A DNA stretch of 42,284 nucleotides from contig CANRDL010000007.1 in the NCBI GenBank assembly GCA_947629405.1, positions 1-42,284 of the forward strand. Reading direction: 5' to 3'. This DNA comes from an uncultured Bacilli bacterium. GTDB lineage: Bacteria > Bacillota_I > Bacilli_A > RF39 > UBA660. Each line of letters opens with the position of its first letter. The first letter of the stretch is position 1. The notes beneath the pieces are model-generated. The model worked only from the letters and a program-made list of their open reading frames with translations. It was not told the origin of the DNA and did not search any database. The translations under genes and the position numbers were made by a program. Positions 2,537 to 37,729 of this stretch are shown in pieces.

Positions 2537-2885
2537 AATTTTTTGGCTTAGAAAATATAATACATATAAAAGAAAAAATTATAGCTGCTGTTATTCCCGC
2601 CGAAGTAGTTGTCAACATATTAGAAAATATTCCGAGAAAACCATTAGTATGATATCCATAATATGCTGCTTTATATAATAAATTACCAAAAGACATTATA
2701 GGAACACTGGCACCACTTCCAACATAATAAGCAAATTTGTCATAAAGATTAAAAAAACCAAGTATAGCACCTACAACGACAAATATAGAAGTAATATGAC
2801 CATTAGTAAGATTAAAATTATCAAATAGTATTTGGGCGATTAAACAAATAAAGCCCACAAATAAAAACGAATATATATATGTCAC
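2535..2885 (-). CDS. spoVAE: Stage V sporulation protein AE (SpoVAEB type)
   Basis: A 116-aa hydrophobic protein with four predicted membrane helices and the family core YYVGSGASVPIMSFGNLLYKAA. SpoVA proteins form the spore inner-membrane channel that loads dipicolinic acid into the forespore and releases it on germination. The start is GTG at 2885, overlapping the TGA of spoVAD as GTGA, with GGAGGT seven bases before it; this overlap implies translational coupling. It is the last gene of the operon. Only C, D and E components are present here; A, B and F are absent from the locus. Confidence 0.93.
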   Translation of the reverse strand: MTYIYSFLFVGFICLIAQILFDNFNLTNGHITSIFVVVGAILGFFNLYDKFAYYVGSGASVPIMSFGNLLYKAAYYGYHTNGFLGIFSNMLTTTSAGITAAIIFSFICIIFSKPKN

Positions 2886-3859
2886 TTTAATACCTCCAAA
2901 CTTATAGCATGGGCAATTGCTGGAATAGTATTTTTTTGATTAACCATTACTGGCGAATGTAATGATCCCGTTGCCACGATTAATATTTTTTTATATTTTT
3001 TTAATTTTAAAACTTTATTAAATAAAACTAAAGGCAAAACTACTGGTCCACTGGCACCACTTTTAGATTTTTCATCTTCCATATTATACAAAAGACACCC
3101 AGCGTCATTATATTTTTTTAATTTAATATGATAATTAAGTTCAAGTATTTCTTTTAAAATTTCTTTTCCACTATTACCTAAATCTCCCGTTAAAATTAAA
3201 TCATAATAATTAACATCTCTATTCATATCTTTTAAATGATTAGCAATTGTTAAAGCTGCTGCTGGTGCCATAACGCCACCCATTTCAAAAACATCTTTTA
3301 AGGTTGAATCTACTACATTACCAATCGTTGCCGATTCAATTTTTATTAAACCATTTTTAGCAAGTACGGCTGCTGTTGAGCCCGTTGCAGTAATGGTTGT
3401 TCGTTTAGGTTTGTAAGCCCCATATTCAATCGGAAATCTAAATTGCTTTTCACTATTTAAATTATGGGCCGAAGTAATTGCTATTCCATTATCAATAAAG
3501 TCATTATCAATAAAACTAGCTAATATTATCATACTTTCGACAAAAGTAGCACAGGCAGAATATTCTCCTAAAAAAGGTATTTTAAAAGATGTCATATTAT
3601 AATTACTTATAGCAATTTGATTTGATAAATCTCCCCCGACAACTAAGTCAATTTTTTTTAAATCTACAATATTTTTTTTAATAATATTATTTAAAACGGT
3701 CTTTTGCATTTTTAACTCTGCTTTTTCTAATGATTTGCAACCAAAATAATAATCATTAATAACATAATCAAAACTTTTAAATTTATTTAAAAACTTATTA
3801 TCATAAATTAATGAATAATAATCTTTTAAAAAAACATTTTTAAATTTAAAACTAGCCAT
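2882..3859 (-). CDS. spoVAD: Stage V sporulation protein AD
   Basis: A 325-aa soluble member of the SpoVA complex with a thiolase-like fold, thought to bind dipicolinic acid at the outer face of the spore inner membrane. Family segments visible are VVGGDLSNQIAISNY, GEYSACATFVESMI, GAYKPKRTTITATGSTAA and the C-terminal LYNMEDEKSKSGASG. The length is close to that of B. subtilis (about 338). It overlaps spoVAC by 8 nt and spoVAE by 4 nt, so all three are coupled. Confidence 0.95.
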   Translation of the reverse strand: MASFKFKNVFLKDYYSLIYDNKFLNKFKSFDYVINDYYFGCKSLEKAELKMQKTVLNNIIKKNIVDLKKIDLVVGGDLSNQIAISNYNMTSFKIPFLGEYSACATFVESMIILASFIDNDFIDNGIAITSAHNLNSEKQFRFPIEYGAYKPKRTTITATGSTAAVLAKNGLIKIESATIGNVVDSTLKDVFEMGGVMAPAAALTIANHLKDMNRDVNYYDLILTGDLGNSGKEILKEILELNYHIKLKKYNDAGCLLYNMEDEKSKSGASGPVVLPLVLFNKVLKLKKYKKILIVATGSLHSPVMVNQKNTIPAIAHAISLEVLK

Positions 3860-4286
3860 AAAGAATCACCTTAATTATAACTAAAATAAATGCTGATAAA
3901 ATTCCATATAATATTACACTTCCCGCCAGTTTAAAAGAATTTGAACCAATTCCCGTCACTAAACCATCTTTTTTATAATCAAGCATTGAACTACATATCG
4001 AATGAGCAAAACCGGTAATGGGAATAATTAAACCACATAAACATATTGCTACTAAATTGTCAAAAAAGCCAAGAGATGTAAATAAACAGGCCAAAAATAT
4101 ATAAATTAAAAGTACAATTATGGCAGAATCCTTTGAAGAAATACCAAAGCTATTAAAAATTGTTACTAAAATATTGGCAATTAAACCTAAAGATCCTCCT
4201 ACTAAAAAAGCAATTAAAGCATGTTTTAATTTATCTTCTTTTGGGGTATGCTTTTTTACTAATTGTTGGTACTTATTATCTTTCAT
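3852..4286 (-). CDS. spoVAC: Stage V sporulation protein AC
   Basis: 144 aa from the ATG at 4286, preceded by GGAGGA eight bases upstream. The longer frame from 4331 adds 15 residues with no family match and is rejected. Four to five membrane helices follow the hydrophilic N-terminus. Family-like segments are HALIAFLVGGSLGLIANI and AHSICSSMLDYKKDGLVTGIGSNSFKLAGSVI. SpoVAC is the membrane channel subunit for dipicolinic acid transport and has been described as mechanosensitive. It follows the sigF-like gene directly, so the spoIIA and spoVA operons of Bacillus appear merged here. Confidence 0.93.
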   Translation of the reverse strand: MKDNKYQQLVKKHTPKEDKLKHALIAFLVGGSLGLIANILVTIFNSFGISSKDSAIIVLLIYIFLACLFTSLGFFDNLVAICLCGLIIPITGFAHSICSSMLDYKKDGLVTGIGSNSFKLAGSVILYGILSAFILVIIKVILYG

Positions 4287-4332
4287 AAAAAAATCCTCCA
4301 TGAATATTATGAAGGTTTTTTTATTTTTCATA

Positions 4333-4968
4333 CTATGAATAAATGTATTTTTTTAGTTTTTTTAAAGATTTTTGCTCATATCTAGATACTTTTACTTGTG
4401 ACATATTTAAAGCTTTAGCAGTTTCTGATTGAGTTTTATCTTCAAAATATCGATATTTAATTATATCTTTTTCAATATCTTCTAAATGTTTTAAAGAATC
4501 TTTTATTAAAATTTTATTTTCAATTGGTTCTTCTTTTTTAGTAACTTTATCTAATATATTAAATTCTTCATTGGCTTCTATACTTAACACTTTTTCTACT
4601 GATAGTAATGTTTCGCTTAGCAAATCCTCATTAATATCTAAAGCAAAAGCAATTTCGGAATTATTAGGTACTTTACCATTTTTTTGGGTAAGTATATCTC
4701 TTGTTTTAATTATCTTTTTATATAATTTTAAATAATTAGAAGAAATTTTTATTGGTCTATCATTATTTACAAAATCATACATTTCTCCATATATCCAAGA
4801 ATAAGCATAAGAAGAAAATTTGGTATTTTTATTATTTTTATAATTTCTCAAAGCTTTTAAAAGTCCTATATAACCTACTTGATATAAATCTTCATAAGAT
4901 GCATTATAAAAACTACTAGCAATTTTTTTAATTAATTTATCATAGTTTTCAATTAATGTATCATTCAT
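4333..4968 (-). CDS. sigF: Sporulation sigma factor, SigF-like
   Basis: A 211-aa sigma-70 family protein. Region 2 is seen in YEDLYQVGYIGLLKALRNY and TKFSSYAYSWIYGEMYDFV, region 3 at about 95-145, and region 4 in FEDKTQSETAKALNMSQVKVSRYEQKSLKKLKK. Its place between a SpoIIAA-like gene and spoVAC matches sigF (spoIIAC), which drives early forespore transcription. It is about 40 residues shorter than B. subtilis SigF and lacks most of the N-terminal segment before region 2. Region 2.4 (NNDRPIKISSNY) is divergent compared with the SigG in this window (RDNSPVRVSRS). Another sporulation sigma is possible, but the neighbours favour SigF. Confidence 0.8.
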   Translation of the reverse strand: MNDTLIENYDKLIKKIASSFYNASYEDLYQVGYIGLLKALRNYKNNKNTKFSSYAYSWIYGEMYDFVNNDRPIKISSNYLKLYKKIIKTRDILTQKNGKVPNNSEIAFALDINEDLLSETLLSVEKVLSIEANEEFNILDKVTKKEEPIENKILIKDSLKHLEDIEKDIIKYRYFEDKTQSETAKALNMSQVKVSRYEQKSLKKLKKYIYS

Positions 4969-4981
4969 TGTTAACCCTTTC

Positions 4982-5314
4982 TTATACTGCTAACAATCTT
5001 TTAGCTTTATTTTCATTTTCAACAATAAATACATTCATATTATCAAAATAGTTAAATATTTTTTTTGATTTAGTACATAAACAAGTGATACCCTTATTTT
5101 GATCAATAGCTATAATTTCTTTTTCTAAATATTTTATCCCTTCTAAACTAAAATAATTTAAATCATTTAGATTAATTATTAAAAATTTAATTTGATTTTC
5201 TAAAATTATAGATATTAATTTTTTATTTAATTTTTGTAAATTAAATTTATTCAAAATTCCCAATAATCTTAATATTAAAATACCATTATTAAATTCTAAA
5301 TCATATTTTAACAT
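4982..5314 (-). CDS. spoIIAA: SpoIIAA-like STAS protein (anti-sigma factor antagonist) lacking the phospho-serine
   Basis: 110 aa from the ATG at 5314, which has AGGTGAT upstream; the frame from 5374 adds 20 residues with no family match. The fold is STAS, with the core strand FLIINLNDLNYF at about 44-55. In B. subtilis SpoIIAA the next residues are DSSG, and Ser58 is phosphorylated by the kinase and anti-sigma factor SpoIIAB. Here the aligned residues are Ser56, Leu57, Glu58, Gly59: Glu occupies the phosphorylation position. The usual next gene, spoIIAB, is missing; the sigma gene follows after 13 nt. The protein may act as a constitutive or re-purposed regulator; assignment as SpoIIAA relies on fold and context. 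Confidence 0.75.
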   Translation of the reverse strand: MLKYDLEFNNGILILRLLGILNKFNLQKLNKKLISIILENQIKFLIINLNDLNYFSLEGIKYLEKEIIAIDQNKGITCLCTKSKKIFNYFDNMNVFIVENENKAKRLLAV

Positions 5315-5390
5315 TTTATCACCTGTGCATAATAATATAGTACTTATTAAAAAATTTTTAAACACTTTCGACAAAACTTCTAAAAAATTA

Positions 5391-10230: not shown

Positions 10231-11373
10231 CTAAACATTACCACCAATTAATTGTTTTAAAGAAGTTAATAAGACATCAAAATAACTATTTCTTTCTATA
10301 TTTTTATTAATTGTTAATGGAACTTTTTTGTAGATATTTCCATCTTCATCAATTATTTTTAATTCACCTACTTTTTCTCCTACTTTAATTGGAGCGGTTA
10401 CATTATATTTTTTTATATCTAATTTATATTTTTTATTAGAATCAGATATTTTTATTAATTTAGAAATATCCGTATTAACAATAAGGTCAGCCGTTTTTTC
10501 TTTTCCGCGATTAATTTTTATTTTCCCTACTTTTTTATTTTTCTTTAATATTTTTTGAATTTTATAACTATTAAAACCATAAGTTAATAAACTTTGGGTG
10601 TCTTTAGTTCTAGTTTTACTATCTGCTTCGTTCATTAAAACAGAAATCAAGCGCATATTATTTTTTTTAGCAGTTGCAGTCAGACAATATCCCGCTTTTT
10701 GGGTGTAACCAGTTTTTAACCCATCGACACTTTTATCAAATCGAACTAATTTATTAGTATTTACCAGCCAAATTTTTGTTCCGTCACTTTTCGTAAAATA
10801 TTCTTCATAAATTTTAGAATAATTTAATATTTTCTCGTGTCTAATTAATTCTTTAGCCATTAATGCCATATCGTAAGCAGTTGAATAATGATTATCGGAA
10901 TCTAAACCATGAACATTTTCAAAATGGGTATTTTTACATCCTAATTCTTGGGCTTTTTTATTCATTAAATTAACAAATGCTTTTTCTGATCCTGCAATTT
11001 TTTCAGCTAAGGCGACTACTGCATCATTAGCACTGGCAACAGTTATTGCTTTAATTAAATCATCTACTTTTTCTTTGGTATTTGGCTGTAAGAATATTTG
11101 GCTACCACCCATTGAAGAGGCATTTTGCGATATTTCTACTTTTTCATCTAATTTTAAATTACCATTTTCTACCTGATCCATTATTAATATTAAACTCATA
11201 ATTTTCGTCATTGAAGCGGGCGCCAATTTTTCCGATTCATTTTTTTTGTAAAGAATATCACCTGTATCATAACTCATTAAAATCCCACTTTTAGCAGAAA
11301 TTTCTAATTCTTCAGCTTTTACATTAGGAATTAGGAATATTAAAAATAAGAAAAATATACCAATTTTTTTCAA
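10231..11373 (-). CDS. dacA: D-alanyl-D-alanine carboxypeptidase (DacA/DacF type)
   Basis: A serine peptidase that trims the terminal D-Ala from peptidoglycan stem peptides. Catalytic motifs with numbering from 11373: SMTK at 54-57, SAN at 114-116 and KTG at 220-222. An N-terminal signal peptide (KKIGIFFLFLIFLIPNVKA) directs export, a PBP5 C-terminal beta domain follows, and the last residues form the usual amphipathic anchor. The GTG at 11382 lies within the AGGTGG ribosome site, so the start is more likely the TTG at 11373, giving 380 aa. In Bacillus dacF precedes spoIIAA; here it lies apart, so a vegetative or sporulation role is undecided. Confidence 0.92.
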   Translation of the reverse strand: MKKIGIFFLFLIFLIPNVKAEELEISAKSGILMSYDTGDILYKKNESEKLAPASMTKIMSLILIMDQVENGNLKLDEKVEISQNASSMGGSQIFLQPNTKEKVDDLIKAITVASANDAVVALAEKIAGSEKAFVNLMNKKAQELGCKNTHFENVHGLDSDNHYSTAYDMALMAKELIRHEKILNYSKIYEEYFTKSDGTKIWLVNTNKLVRFDKSVDGLKTGYTQKAGYCLTATAKKNNMRLISVLMNEADSKTRTKDTQSLLTYGFNSYKIQKILKKNKKVGKIKINRGKEKTADLIVNTDISKLIKISDSNKKYKLDIKKYNVTAPIKVGEKVGELKIIDEDGNIYKKVPLTINKNIERNSYFDVLLTSLKQLIGGNV

Positions 11374-11463
11374 TTTAACCACCTAATAAAAAATACGCAT
11401 AAAAAAAATTTATATTACTCATAAATTTTTAGTATATTATTTTAATAAGTGTCTATAATAATA

Positions 11464-29194: not shown

Positions 29195-29226
29195 AAATAG
29201 AATTGTTAACCAATTCTATTTTTTTA
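29195..29226. terminator. Bidirectional terminator
   Basis: AATAGAATTG and its complement CAATTCTATT enclose TTAAC, flanked by A and T runs, between the converging 299-aa gene and the rhomboid protease gene. Confidence 0.85.
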
Positions 29227-30369
29227 TTTGAAAAAAACCATATATGATAAAAATGCTAATAAAATAACTAATACTATCCAACCATTTATTTTTTCACTAT
29301 TTTTTGATTTATTATTAATACCAACAGCCATGGTTGCAATAGCACCACCAACTAAACCGCCAATGTGAGCAGCATTATCAATTCCGGAAATCATAAACCC
29401 AAGAGCTAAATTCAAAATAATTATCGGAATAATTTGAGTTTTTAAAACACTGGATAAATATACTCGATAGTAATAACCAAAATAAAGTAAAGAACCAAGT
29501 AAACCAAATATCGCTCCACTGGCCCCAGCGGAAATATTATTAGAAAATATAATAGACATTAAGCTAGCCGTAATAGCACTAAATAAATAGATAAATATAA
29601 ATTTTCCTTTACCTAAGTAATTTTCTATTTGTGTCCCAATTATATAAAGGGAATACATATTAACTAATAAATGAATAATTCCAATATGTAAAAAAGCACA
29701 ACTTATCAAGCGATATAATTGTCCACTTTTAACAAGTGGTCCAAAATTAGCCCCAAATTTTATTAATGTATTAGAATCAGTACTACCGTTTCCAAATATA
29801 TACATCAACATAAACATTAAAATATTTAAGGCGATTAAAGCATAAGTAATAACTATTTTTTTCTTTTTAAATGTATTTTCATATTTAATGTTTTCTTTTT
29901 CTGTTTTTTTATTTATTTCCTTTGTAGTTTTAATGATAAAATCTAAATTATCACCATCTTTAGTCTTTTCAACTTTAATTGTAGGAAAATAACTTTTAAG
30001 ATTTTTATTTTTATAAATATCACTTTCATTGTTTATAATAATAGAAGAAATATCTTTAACATCTTTTACCTTTACATTTTCATTGATATTTAAAACTATA
30101 TTTAATGTATTAACTGATAAAGATAAAGTCTTTTTTCTTACTTGTCTTATTATATTTCTTATTTTATAAATATCTATTTTAAATTGTTCTTCATTATGAA
30201 TATAATTTGAATTTATTCTAATTATTTTATATGGCCCCTCAGCATTTTCTAGCCATATTTCATTTTTGGCACCATTTACAATTATCGGTGTATAATTTTC
30301 TTTTGTAATAAAATAATGAACTAATTTCATAGTGATTTTATCTTTTTCGTTGATAATTACATTATTCAT
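29224..30369 (-). CDS. Rhomboid-family intramembrane serine protease
   Basis: 381 aa from the ATG at 30369, preceded by AGAGGTGG; the frame from 30402 starts before that site. Residues 1-165 are a hydrophilic cytoplasmic domain, then seven membrane helices. The catalytic dyad is Ser284 in GASGAIFG and His335 in AAHIGGLVGG; HLLVNMYSL carries the conserved His-x-x-x-Asn of helix 2. The layout resembles GluP (YqgP) of B. subtilis, but I see no TPR repeats at the C-terminus. It cleaves membrane proteins within the bilayer; substrates are unknown. Confidence 0.93.
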   Translation of the reverse strand: MNNVIINEKDKITMKLVHYFITKENYTPIIVNGAKNEIWLENAEGPYKIIRINSNYIHNEEQFKIDIYKIRNIIRQVRKKTLSLSVNTLNIVLNINENVKVKDVKDISSIIINNESDIYKNKNLKSYFPTIKVEKTKDGDNLDFIIKTTKEINKKTEKENIKYENTFKKKKIVITYALIALNILMFMLMYIFGNGSTDSNTLIKFGANFGPLVKSGQLYRLISCAFLHIGIIHLLVNMYSLYIIGTQIENYLGKGKFIFIYLFSAITASLMSIIFSNNISAGASGAIFGLLGSLLYFGYYYRVYLSSVLKTQIIPIIILNLALGFMISGIDNAAHIGGLVGGAIATMAVGINNKSKNSEKINGWIVLVILLAFLSYMVFFK

Positions 30370-30432
30370 ATTTTTCCACCTCTTGTAATAATATTTTAAC
30401 ATAAAATTATTTTTTATTAAAGAGGAGAAAAT

Positions 30433-33225: not shown

Positions 33226-34002
33226 TTATTTTATAAGTTTTTTAATATTATTTATAGCTGTTTTTTCTATTCTTGACACTTGAGCTTGCGAAATATCTAA
33301 GGATGTGGCAATTTCTGTTTGAGTTTTTCCTATAATAAATCTTTCAAGTAACACCTGTTTTTCTCGAGGTTTTATTTTATCTAATGCTTTTCTTAAGGAA
33401 ATTAAAGCATCTTTATCATTGTCTAAATCTTTTTTATCCATTATTTGATCCATCAAATAAATTGGATCGCCACCATCATTATAAATTGGTTCAAAAATAC
33501 TCATTGGATCTTTTAAAGAATCTAAAGCATTAGTTATTTCATATTCTTCAATGTCTAGATGAGCAGCAATTTCAGCATTACTTGGATAAAAACCATTTTC
33601 TGCTAAATATTCATCTTTATATTGGATTATTTTATAAGCTCGATCTTTTATACTCCTACTCACTCTTACTGGGCTATTATCTCTTACATATCTTTTTATT
33701 TCTCCTTTAATTAAAGGTACTGCATAAGTTGAAAATTTAACTTCATGAGATAAGTCAAAATTATCTACTGCTTTAGTAAGACCAATACACCCTATTTGAA
33801 AAAGATCATCTAAATTATATTTTTGATTATTAAATCTTTTCAAAATACTTAATACTAATTTTAAATTACCGAGTATTAATTTTTCTTTAGCTAGTATATT
33901 GCCATTTTGATATTCTTTAAAAAGTTCAACCATTTCTTTATGTTTTAAAACTTTTAATTTACTAGTATTTATTCCGGTAATTTCTACTTTAAAATTACTC
34001 AA
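33226..34002 (-). CDS. sigG: RNA polymerase sporulation sigma factor SigG
   Basis: 258 aa, full length. Late forespore sigma factor. Region 2 is LDDLFQIGCIGLTKAVDNFDLSHEVKFSTYAVPLIKGEIKRYVRD, followed by VRVSRSIKDRAYK, and region 4 by FIIGKTQTEIATSLDISQAQVSRIEKTA; all are close to Bacillus SigG. The start codon is TTG (34000-34002), nine bases after AAAGGAG, which should keep expression low. The spoIIGA-sigE genes that normally precede it are not here; fic and rpoZ lie upstream instead. It presumably transcribes the SpoVA genes in this window. Confidence 0.95.
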   Translation of the reverse strand: MSNFKVEITGINTSKLKVLKHKEMVELFKEYQNGNILAKEKLILGNLKLVLSILKRFNNQKYNLDDLFQIGCIGLTKAVDNFDLSHEVKFSTYAVPLIKGEIKRYVRDNSPVRVSRSIKDRAYKIIQYKDEYLAENGFYPSNAEIAAHLDIEEYEITNALDSLKDPMSIFEPIYNDGGDPIYLMDQIMDKKDLDNDKDALISLRKALDKIKPREKQVLLERFIIGKTQTEIATSLDISQAQVSRIEKTAINNIKKLIK

Positions 34003-34052
34003 TAAAAAAATCTCCTTTCAAACTAATTAAGTTTAAATGAAGACTATTTTAT

Positions 34053-34805
34053 TCATTTATTTCTTTCATTAATAATATTATCATATTTTGCTTGCTCTAT
34101 TTCAGAAAAATTGTTATATTCTATTAATCCTTCATCATTCATTTTATTATATAGTGCAATCATATTTGCCATTTCTTTTTCACTACACTCTTTAAACAAT
34201 TTTGCCAATTCATAAGTATTAGATTCTTCAATATATTGACAATATCTTTTTTTGTCTTCTTGATTGATTATACATGGTGCATGGTTAAATTTAGATAAAT
34301 TATATGTTAAAATAATTCTTGCTATTCTCCCATTACCATCTTCAAAAGGATGAATATGTAATAATCGAATATGAAACATAGCTTCTCTTTCAAAGTCATC
34401 AATTTCAGAACAAGTTACCCAGTAGTTATAGTCATTTATTAAATAATATAAATGATTAATTATTAATTCAGGACTAGTTCTTTCTACTTTTGAACCATTT
34501 ACAATAGCATTAGTTTTCCTAAATTCACTATATTCACCATTTGTTACTTTTTTTATCAAATCACATAAAATATTATTAAATTCAATGTAGTTATATTCTT
34601 TACAAGCTTTCAGGTTAAATATATATTCTATTGCTTGTAATTGATTATCAATTTGAATAGATTCCAAGGAATTTAATGAATCTTTATCTAAATTCTCTAA
34701 ACTCAAACTTGATAGTGCTAATCGAAATTTAATATTATCAAAATATCTTTTTCTAAATTCATTATTTTTATCAAATAATTCATTTAAAATTTTAATCACC
34801 CCCAA
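34053..34805 (-). CDS. Fic-domain protein (likely AMPylator) with an inhibitory helix
   Basis: About 250 aa. The Fic motif HPFEDGNGRIAR (152-163) contains the catalytic His and the phosphate-binding loop. An N-terminal SSLSLEN (32-38) fits the class II inhibitory pattern S/T-x-x-x-E-G/N, so the enzyme is probably self-inhibited. Fic proteins transfer AMP, or another phosphate group, to target hydroxyls. The start is uncertain: no ATG exists in frame near the 5' end, only TTG (34805) and GTG (34799), the latter within GGGGGTG; an ATT a few bases later would have the best spacing. The rpoZ stop is 3 nt upstream. The targets are unknown. Confidence 0.85.
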   Translation of the reverse strand: MGVIKILNELFDKNNEFRKRYFDNIKFRLALSSLSLENLDKDSLNSLESIQIDNQLQAIEYIFNLKACKEYNYIEFNNILCDLIKKVTNGEYSEFRKTNAIVNGSKVERTSPELIINHLYYLINDYNYWVTCSEIDDFEREAMFHIRLLHIHPFEDGNGRIARIILTYNLSKFNHAPCIINQEDKKRYCQYIEESNTYELAKLFKECSEKEMANMIALYNKMNDEGLIEYNNFSEIEQAKYDNIINERNK

Positions 34806-37408: not shown

Positions 37409-37729
37409 TTAATAACAACATTTATTGTCGTAAACATTACATACAACATTTTCTTCACAACAAGTAAAACAAGGATCATATGAATGATGATATATGTGAT
37501 GATTAACAATTCTTGTATTTACTGGACAAATGTGTCTAACTTGATGATTGATTTCTCTGTGGCATACTCTTTCTTGTGGACATTCATAAACTGGTGGGCA
37601 CATAACTCCAGGATAGCTTTCACAGCATTGTGTTTCTGTTTTCATAGTTTGTTCTTTCATTTCCTTAGCTTGATAAGGCATTGCTTGGGCAGGAAATGAT
37701 GAATCAATACAACGATTATTTTTAAACAT
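37409..37729 (-). CDS. cotD: CotD-like inner spore coat protein
   Basis: 106 aa, rich in Cys and His. The core CPQERVCHREINHQVRHICPVNTRIVNHHIYHHSYDP matches the CotD pattern of repeated His/Pro/Val segments, and the C-terminal CCEEN...CCY is typical of coat proteins that cross-link through disulfides. The mother cell makes such proteins late in sporulation. A sigma-K-like -10 (CATAAACTA) lies upstream. There is no signal peptide, as expected. GAAAGGGAAG precedes the start. Confidence 0.82.
   Translation of the reverse strand: MFKNNRCIDSSFPAQAMPYQAKEMKEQTMKTETQCCESYPGVMCPPVYECPQERVCHREINHQVRHICPVNTRIVNHHIYHHSYDPCFTCCEENVVCNVYDNKCCY

Follow-up and report, generated by a model that had tools for sequence, protein, structure and literature searches.

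A SpoIIAA-derived STAS protein retained next to sigF in uncultured Bacilli in which SpoIIAB and SpoIIE are not detected

In the large family of uncultured gut Bacilli to which the DNA analysed here belongs, the gene of a SpoIIAA-type STAS protein has been kept directly upstream of sigF, and neither SpoIIAB nor SpoIIE could be detected. In textbooks, the SpoIIAA/SpoIIAB/SpoIIE switch stands as the model example of a bacterium giving its two sister cells different identities. We lean towards the view that these bacteria, whose sporulation is predicted, possess a stripped-down sigma-F module, in which the phospho-switch is gone, Spo0A-driven transcription serves as the first control and the STAS protein has been repurposed as a sporulation accessory. 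More than 140 genera keep the signals downstream of the forespore switch without having the switch, and there are natural variants that even lack the STAS protein. Thus, the parts that are needed for cell-specific sigma F activity become directly testable.

The window, i.e. the whole stretch of 42,284 nt that was analysed, carries the STAS gene on its minus strand (positions 4982-5314; 110 amino acids). It is followed, after a gap of 13 nt (4969-4981) where spoIIAB would be expected, by the gene of a SigF-like sporulation sigma factor (4333-4968; 211 amino acids) and by spoVAC (3852-4331; PF03862, TIGR02838 as the best match), spoVAD (2882-3859; PF07451, 3e-98) and spoVAE (2535-2885; PF03862, TIGR02839 as the best match), all on the minus strand. 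This gene order identifies the locus as the spoIIA-spoVA region without spoIIAB, and both the absence of the gene and the length of the gap are as originally noted. The gene of a DacF-type D-Ala-D-Ala carboxypeptidase, which neighbours spoIIA in Bacillus, is displaced in the window (10231-11382, minus strand; PF00768, 5e-84). A full-length sigG gene for a protein of 258 amino acids is located at positions 33226-34002 of the minus strand (NF006071, 354 bits). In the same-genus genome (locus L003), a rhomboid-type gene lies directly upstream of the STAS gene. Its counterpart in the window (29224-30402) is 24 kb away and its place is occupied by fhs, which indicates a local rearrangement that left the STAS-sigF-spoVA unit intact.

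The designation of the 110-residue protein as SpoIIAA-like was confirmed. It matches the Pfam STAS profile above the cut-off (38 bits, 1.2e-9), its AlphaFold model (pLDDT 91.5, pTM 0.85) has a helix at residues 57-72, and the closest PDB structure to this model is 1th8_B (E 1e-8; TM-score 0.88 by query length), the SpoIIAA chain from SpoIIAA-SpoIIAB crystals. With TIGR02886 (spore_II_AA) it scores 27.4 bits, which is below the equivalog cut-off of 114.75. For the sigma factor, TIGR02885 is the best equivalog (145 bits), although the score does not reach the cut-off of 321, and 1l0o_C is the best PDB match, with residues 3-206 aligning to residues 31-243. Judged from its sequence and its neighbourhood, the protein is a SigF-type sigma factor: among the sporulation sigma factors SigF is the nearest, the spoVA genes are its neighbours and sigG is a separate gene. 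Compared with SigF of Bacillus, the protein is short of about 30 residues at its N-terminus. In the window's family, the SigF N-terminus is shorter than in SpoIIAB-bearing lineages (median 217 versus 236 codons, counted from the first in-frame ATG), and part of region 1.2 seems to have been lost.

By using the PF13581 profile, spoIIAB was found neither between the STAS gene and sigF nor elsewhere in the window's assembly, which is 88.7% complete. SpoIIE was not found in this assembly either, and the combination of a spoIIAB gene at another place and a second SpoIIAA with the normal serine, which would have contradicted the original proposal, was looked for and not found; nor was there any match to a second SpoIIAA. 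PF13581 also revealed no spoIIAB in the only other genome of the same genus (93% complete), and none of the 145 family genomes, of which 112 are at least 90% complete, yielded a stand-alone SpoIIAB. The PF13581 matches in these 145 genomes are long kinases, other ATPases or one broken histidine kinase. A frame of 146 codons (L037), which has the right length for SpoIIAB, was rejected because it is the C-terminal end of a histidine kinase broken by a frameshift. Moreover, TIGR01925 scored above its cut-off in 48 of the 247 genomes of the class and in none of the window's family. The absence of SpoIIAB holds for detection by these two profiles; a SpoIIAB that is too diverged for both of them is conceivable. 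The phosphatase profile PF07228 exceeded its cut-off in 3 of the 145 family genomes, two of the matches being fusions of SpoIIE and HATPase domains, and no convincing SpoIIE was identified among them. In two genera (G099, L032/L043; G122, L033/L042), a frame of 625-632 amino acids joins a SpoIIE-type phosphatase to an ATPase of the SpoIIAB/RsbW type. With SpoIIAB not found, the defining activity of SpoIIAA, i.e. the binding of SpoIIAB and the release of sigma F, has no partner here.

The signalling genes that act later were largely retained, SpoIIR being present in 126 and SpoIIGA in 123 of the 145 family genomes. Thus, it is reasonable to assume, as the original prediction did, that sigma F is restricted in some other way. 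For instance, an anti-sigma factor that escaped recognition, or a protease-based control, might have taken the place of SpoIIAB and would then be antagonised by the STAS protein. The retention of SpoIIR and SpoIIGA would fit this explanation because sigma F presumably still needs restricting, as would the finding that the STAS protein, whose fold is preserved, is under selection. However, a stand-alone HATPase protein was not found in the 145 genomes, Fin, which is another anti-sigma-F protein, gave no match above the cut-off in any of them, and no third gene is common to the STAS-sigF units. We consider a replacement of this kind unlikely.

Ser56-Leu57-Glu58-Gly59 of the window protein are encoded by positions 5138-5149 of the minus strand, as had been read from the sequence before, and in an ungapped alignment with SpoIIAA (1auz, 1th8 and 1tid) they stand opposite D57-S58-S59-G60 of the B. 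subtilis protein. In B. subtilis SpoIIAA, Ser58 is the phospho-site (PMC3517971). The S58A mutant 1tid (MDASG) differs from the wild type 1th8 (MDSSG) exactly opposite Leu57. Thus, Leu57 occupies the phospho-position in the window protein, and the glutamate that had been assigned to the phosphorylation site is located one residue further, where it pairs with Ser59. The sister protein from L003 reads S-K-L-G at the aligned residues; therefore, neither Leu57 nor Glu58 is conserved in the genus.

In 211 non-redundant relatives, a sample that is not strictly even because about one third of the STAS-sigF pairs (L046-L125) were retrieved with a SigF pattern and the rest by searches spread over genera, the aligned phospho-column is mixed (E 58, L 21, N 20, M 19, I 19, S 14, D 11, K 10 and others). 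Ser or Thr is present in 16 of the 211 proteins, as compared to Ser in 23 of 23 cases from SpoIIAB-bearing lineages of the class. L011, which reads DSSG, is an example of the few members with a retained Ser. The loss of the kinase and the loss of its target residue, which had been proposed to go together, are thus seen throughout the family, in which SpoIIE is also missing. On the tree, the phospho-column changes about 96 times, the median column 61 times and the flanking Asp and Gly columns 9 and 8 times, respectively. Because the phospho-column is saturated, the ancestral residue inferred by parsimony is ambiguous.

Across the relatives, glutamate occurs at the true phospho-position more often than any other residue, and in one clade of 67 relatives (support 0.94), to which the window does not belong, it is found there in 47 proteins and in 30 of the 34 members of a subclade. 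These numbers would fit the explanation that the glutamate is a fixed phosphomimic, which locks the protein in one state, and for the Glu clade the idea could, by coincidence, apply. However, what distinguishes phospho-SpoIIAA is its inability to bind SpoIIAB, a partner that the family does not have and that need not be avoided. Moreover, the residue turns over rapidly in the family as a whole, and glutamate is also an ordinary capping residue in the first turn of a helix. For the window protein the idea is inapplicable, since its Glu58 lies beside the site and is replaced in the sister. Overall, a phosphomimic role is very improbable.

Matches to the STAS profile were obtained in 284 of 386 genomes, corresponding to 122 of the 150 genera. 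In all 251 readable STAS-sigF pairs the start of sigF is less than 65 nt away and often overlaps the STAS gene, as compared to a distance of about 340-560 nt in lineages that have SpoIIAB. The STAS protein is present in 106 of 126 SpoIIR-positive genomes and in 4 of 19 SpoIIR-negative genomes (Fisher p 7e-8, ignoring relatedness). It could be assumed that the gene is a relic, which has been functionless since SpoIIAB was lost and is disappearing from one lineage after another. Indeed, it is missing in 20 of 126 SpoIIR-positive genera, in which SigF and the promoter are unchanged, and the phospho-face is free to vary. However, the median dN/dS of the STAS gene is 0.15, similar to that of sigF (0.17), which indicates that the gene is not drifting, and the reading frames are intact. 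The high share of SpoIIR-positive genomes that keep the gene and the appearance of newly conserved residues, namely E7 (194/210), G11 (191/210) and R16 (197/210), also speak against a relic, which we regard as quite improbable.

D22, F54, S57, S58, G61, G65, R66, S93 and G94 (window numbering) are constrained only where SpoIIAB is present and are free to vary in the family. Residues E7, F/Y8, K10 and G11 of the beta1-beta2 hairpin are conserved only in the family lacking SpoIIAB. The face of SpoIIAA that carries Ser58 is the one that binds SpoIIAB in SpoIIAA-SpoIIAB complexes. Thus, constraint has been lifted from the old interface and placed on another surface, and we infer from this pattern of conservation that the STAS protein may have acquired a new functional face.

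A more far-reaching possibility, of which the contact with the sigma factor had also been raised for the window protein, is that the SpoIIAA-derived STAS protein binds sigma F (or the polymerase) directly via this new face and acts in the place of SpoIIAB as a new anti-sigma factor or co-factor. STAS and SigF would then constitute a two-gene forespore switch that is independent of phosphorylation and needs neither kinase nor phosphatase. The close apposition of the two genes in all 251 pairs, the purifying selection on the STAS protein with its newly conserved face and the link between its presence and the sporulation genes are in line with this idea. However, a mean-field DCA of the 251 STAS-SigF pairs, which is underpowered (Neff 178, 321 columns), ranked inter-protein pairs at the top less often than expected at random and revealed no coherent patch. 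A co-linear AlphaFold model, in which the stop codon was read as Gly and which was based on only 15 in-frame loci, yielded two good domains and no predicted complex (pTM 0.37) and is thus a weak negative. Moreover, no convincing relaxation was seen in any of the 52 conserved SigF columns in genomes that have lost the STAS protein (lowest p 0.006, uncorrected), and sigma F persists without it in about 20 genera. A direct contact thus found no support in these analyses, and we regard it as doubtful.

The genomes that have sigF and no STAS gene detectable at the profile level comprise 7 individual genomes and the set of STAS-negative, SpoIIR-positive genera mentioned above. In L072 and L333, a dacF-type gene immediately precedes sigF, a layout that would result from the excision of both spoIIAA and spoIIAB from the Bacillus order. 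No replacement gene upstream of sigF is common to the STAS-less genomes. Since these genera retain sigF under the same promoter, the STAS protein is dispensable.

As regards this promoter, a perfect Spo0A box (TGTCGAA; 5367-5373, minus strand) is located 59 nt upstream of the STAS start codon in the window, with a sigma-A-like promoter (TTTAAA-17-TATATT; 5334-5362, minus strand) directly downstream of the box. Such a box is present upstream in 191 of 210 STAS-bearing relatives (3.4 expected), where its distance is almost constant, and also in front of sigF in 20 of 22 cases without a STAS gene (0.4 expected). It also occurs in 14 of 23 SpoIIAB-bearing operons and is therefore no proof of a substitute control. 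Spo0A-driven transcription alone does not account for the activity of sigma F in one cell. At the next step of the cascade, the conserved promoter element TGAATAA-N14/15-nnCANNAT was found upstream of spoIIR (L352-L391) in 34 of 40 family genomes (4.8 expected; the first half of the element was counted), and the canonical sigma-F consensus (GYATA/GG form) is not enriched there. The spoIIR element is nearer to the sigma-G consensus than to the Bacillus sigma-F consensus, and a similar element is located upstream of sigG in the window (34026-34055, minus strand).

Taken together, the kinase and anti-sigma factor SpoIIAB and the phosphatase SpoIIE are undetectable throughout the family. The SpoIIAA-derived STAS protein has stayed directly upstream of sigF, behind a conserved Spo0A box and a sigma-A-like promoter, while losing the phospho-serine and the other SpoIIAB-linked invariants, and the genes for signalling from sigma F to sigma E have been retained. 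According to the reading that we prefer, sigma F would be controlled first by Spo0A-driven transcription instead of partner switching. The STAS protein would act as a phosphorylation-independent accessory via the beta1-beta2 hairpin, with sigma F, RNA polymerase or another sporulation protein as its putative target. Such a module shares with the SpoIIAA-SpoIIAB-SigF-SpoIIE switch of Bacillus and Clostridia the STAS-sigF-spoVA order around the lost gene, the fold, the control by Spo0A and SpoIIR/SpoIIGA. It differs from it by the lack of SpoIIAB and SpoIIE, the absence of a phosphorylatable serine in most proteins, the loss of the SpoIIAB-facing invariants and the dispensability of the STAS protein.

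For the order RF39 it has been reported that spoIIAB and spoIIE are reduced or absent and that spoIIGA, spoIIM, spoIIP and spoIIQ are present, and a different regulation was predicted (Field et al. 2024; PMC10868615). The gene signature of the window's family matches this description, which makes RF39 its most likely assignment. That RF39 has lost spoIIAB and spoIIE is thus already mentioned in one sentence of that study. It does not deal with SpoIIAA and its phospho-site, with the promoter or with sigF genes that lack a spoIIAA neighbour, and what we describe for the residue, the promoter and the loss of STAS seems to be new. Nothing closer on a direct contact between STAS proteins and sigma factors or on sigF without spoIIAB was found in the literature. 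A STAS protein without a known kinase is MlaB, which is bound to the ABC ATPase MlaF (PMC7367683). Like the STAS family described here, MlaB employs the domain outside phospho-partner switching; however, it keeps the phospho-position Thr52 in the interface (PMC7367683), whereas the window's family has abandoned the phospho-residue. In SpoMAG, spoIIAB is among the genes that are present in all predicted spore-formers, and the value for RF39 MAGs is 0% (PMC12536801). Any prediction from gene content that depends on spoIIAB would class such organisms as unable to sporulate.

Two further observations concern individual genes. A Cys/His-rich protein of 106 amino acids encoded in the window (37409-37729, minus strand) has no Pfam or NCBIfam match and resembles by eye a CotD-type spore coat protein. 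In four related rabbit-gut genomes (L057, L067, L070 and L102), an in-frame TGA is present early in sigF (MI-TGA-KIASHFYG) at a position that is occupied by Trp in relatives. Genetic code 4 was rejected for these loci, as a sense TGA occurs only in sigF and nowhere else in their conserved genes. Purifying selection acts on the remainder of sigF, and a rare decoding of TGA as Trp or a control by read-through are candidate readings.
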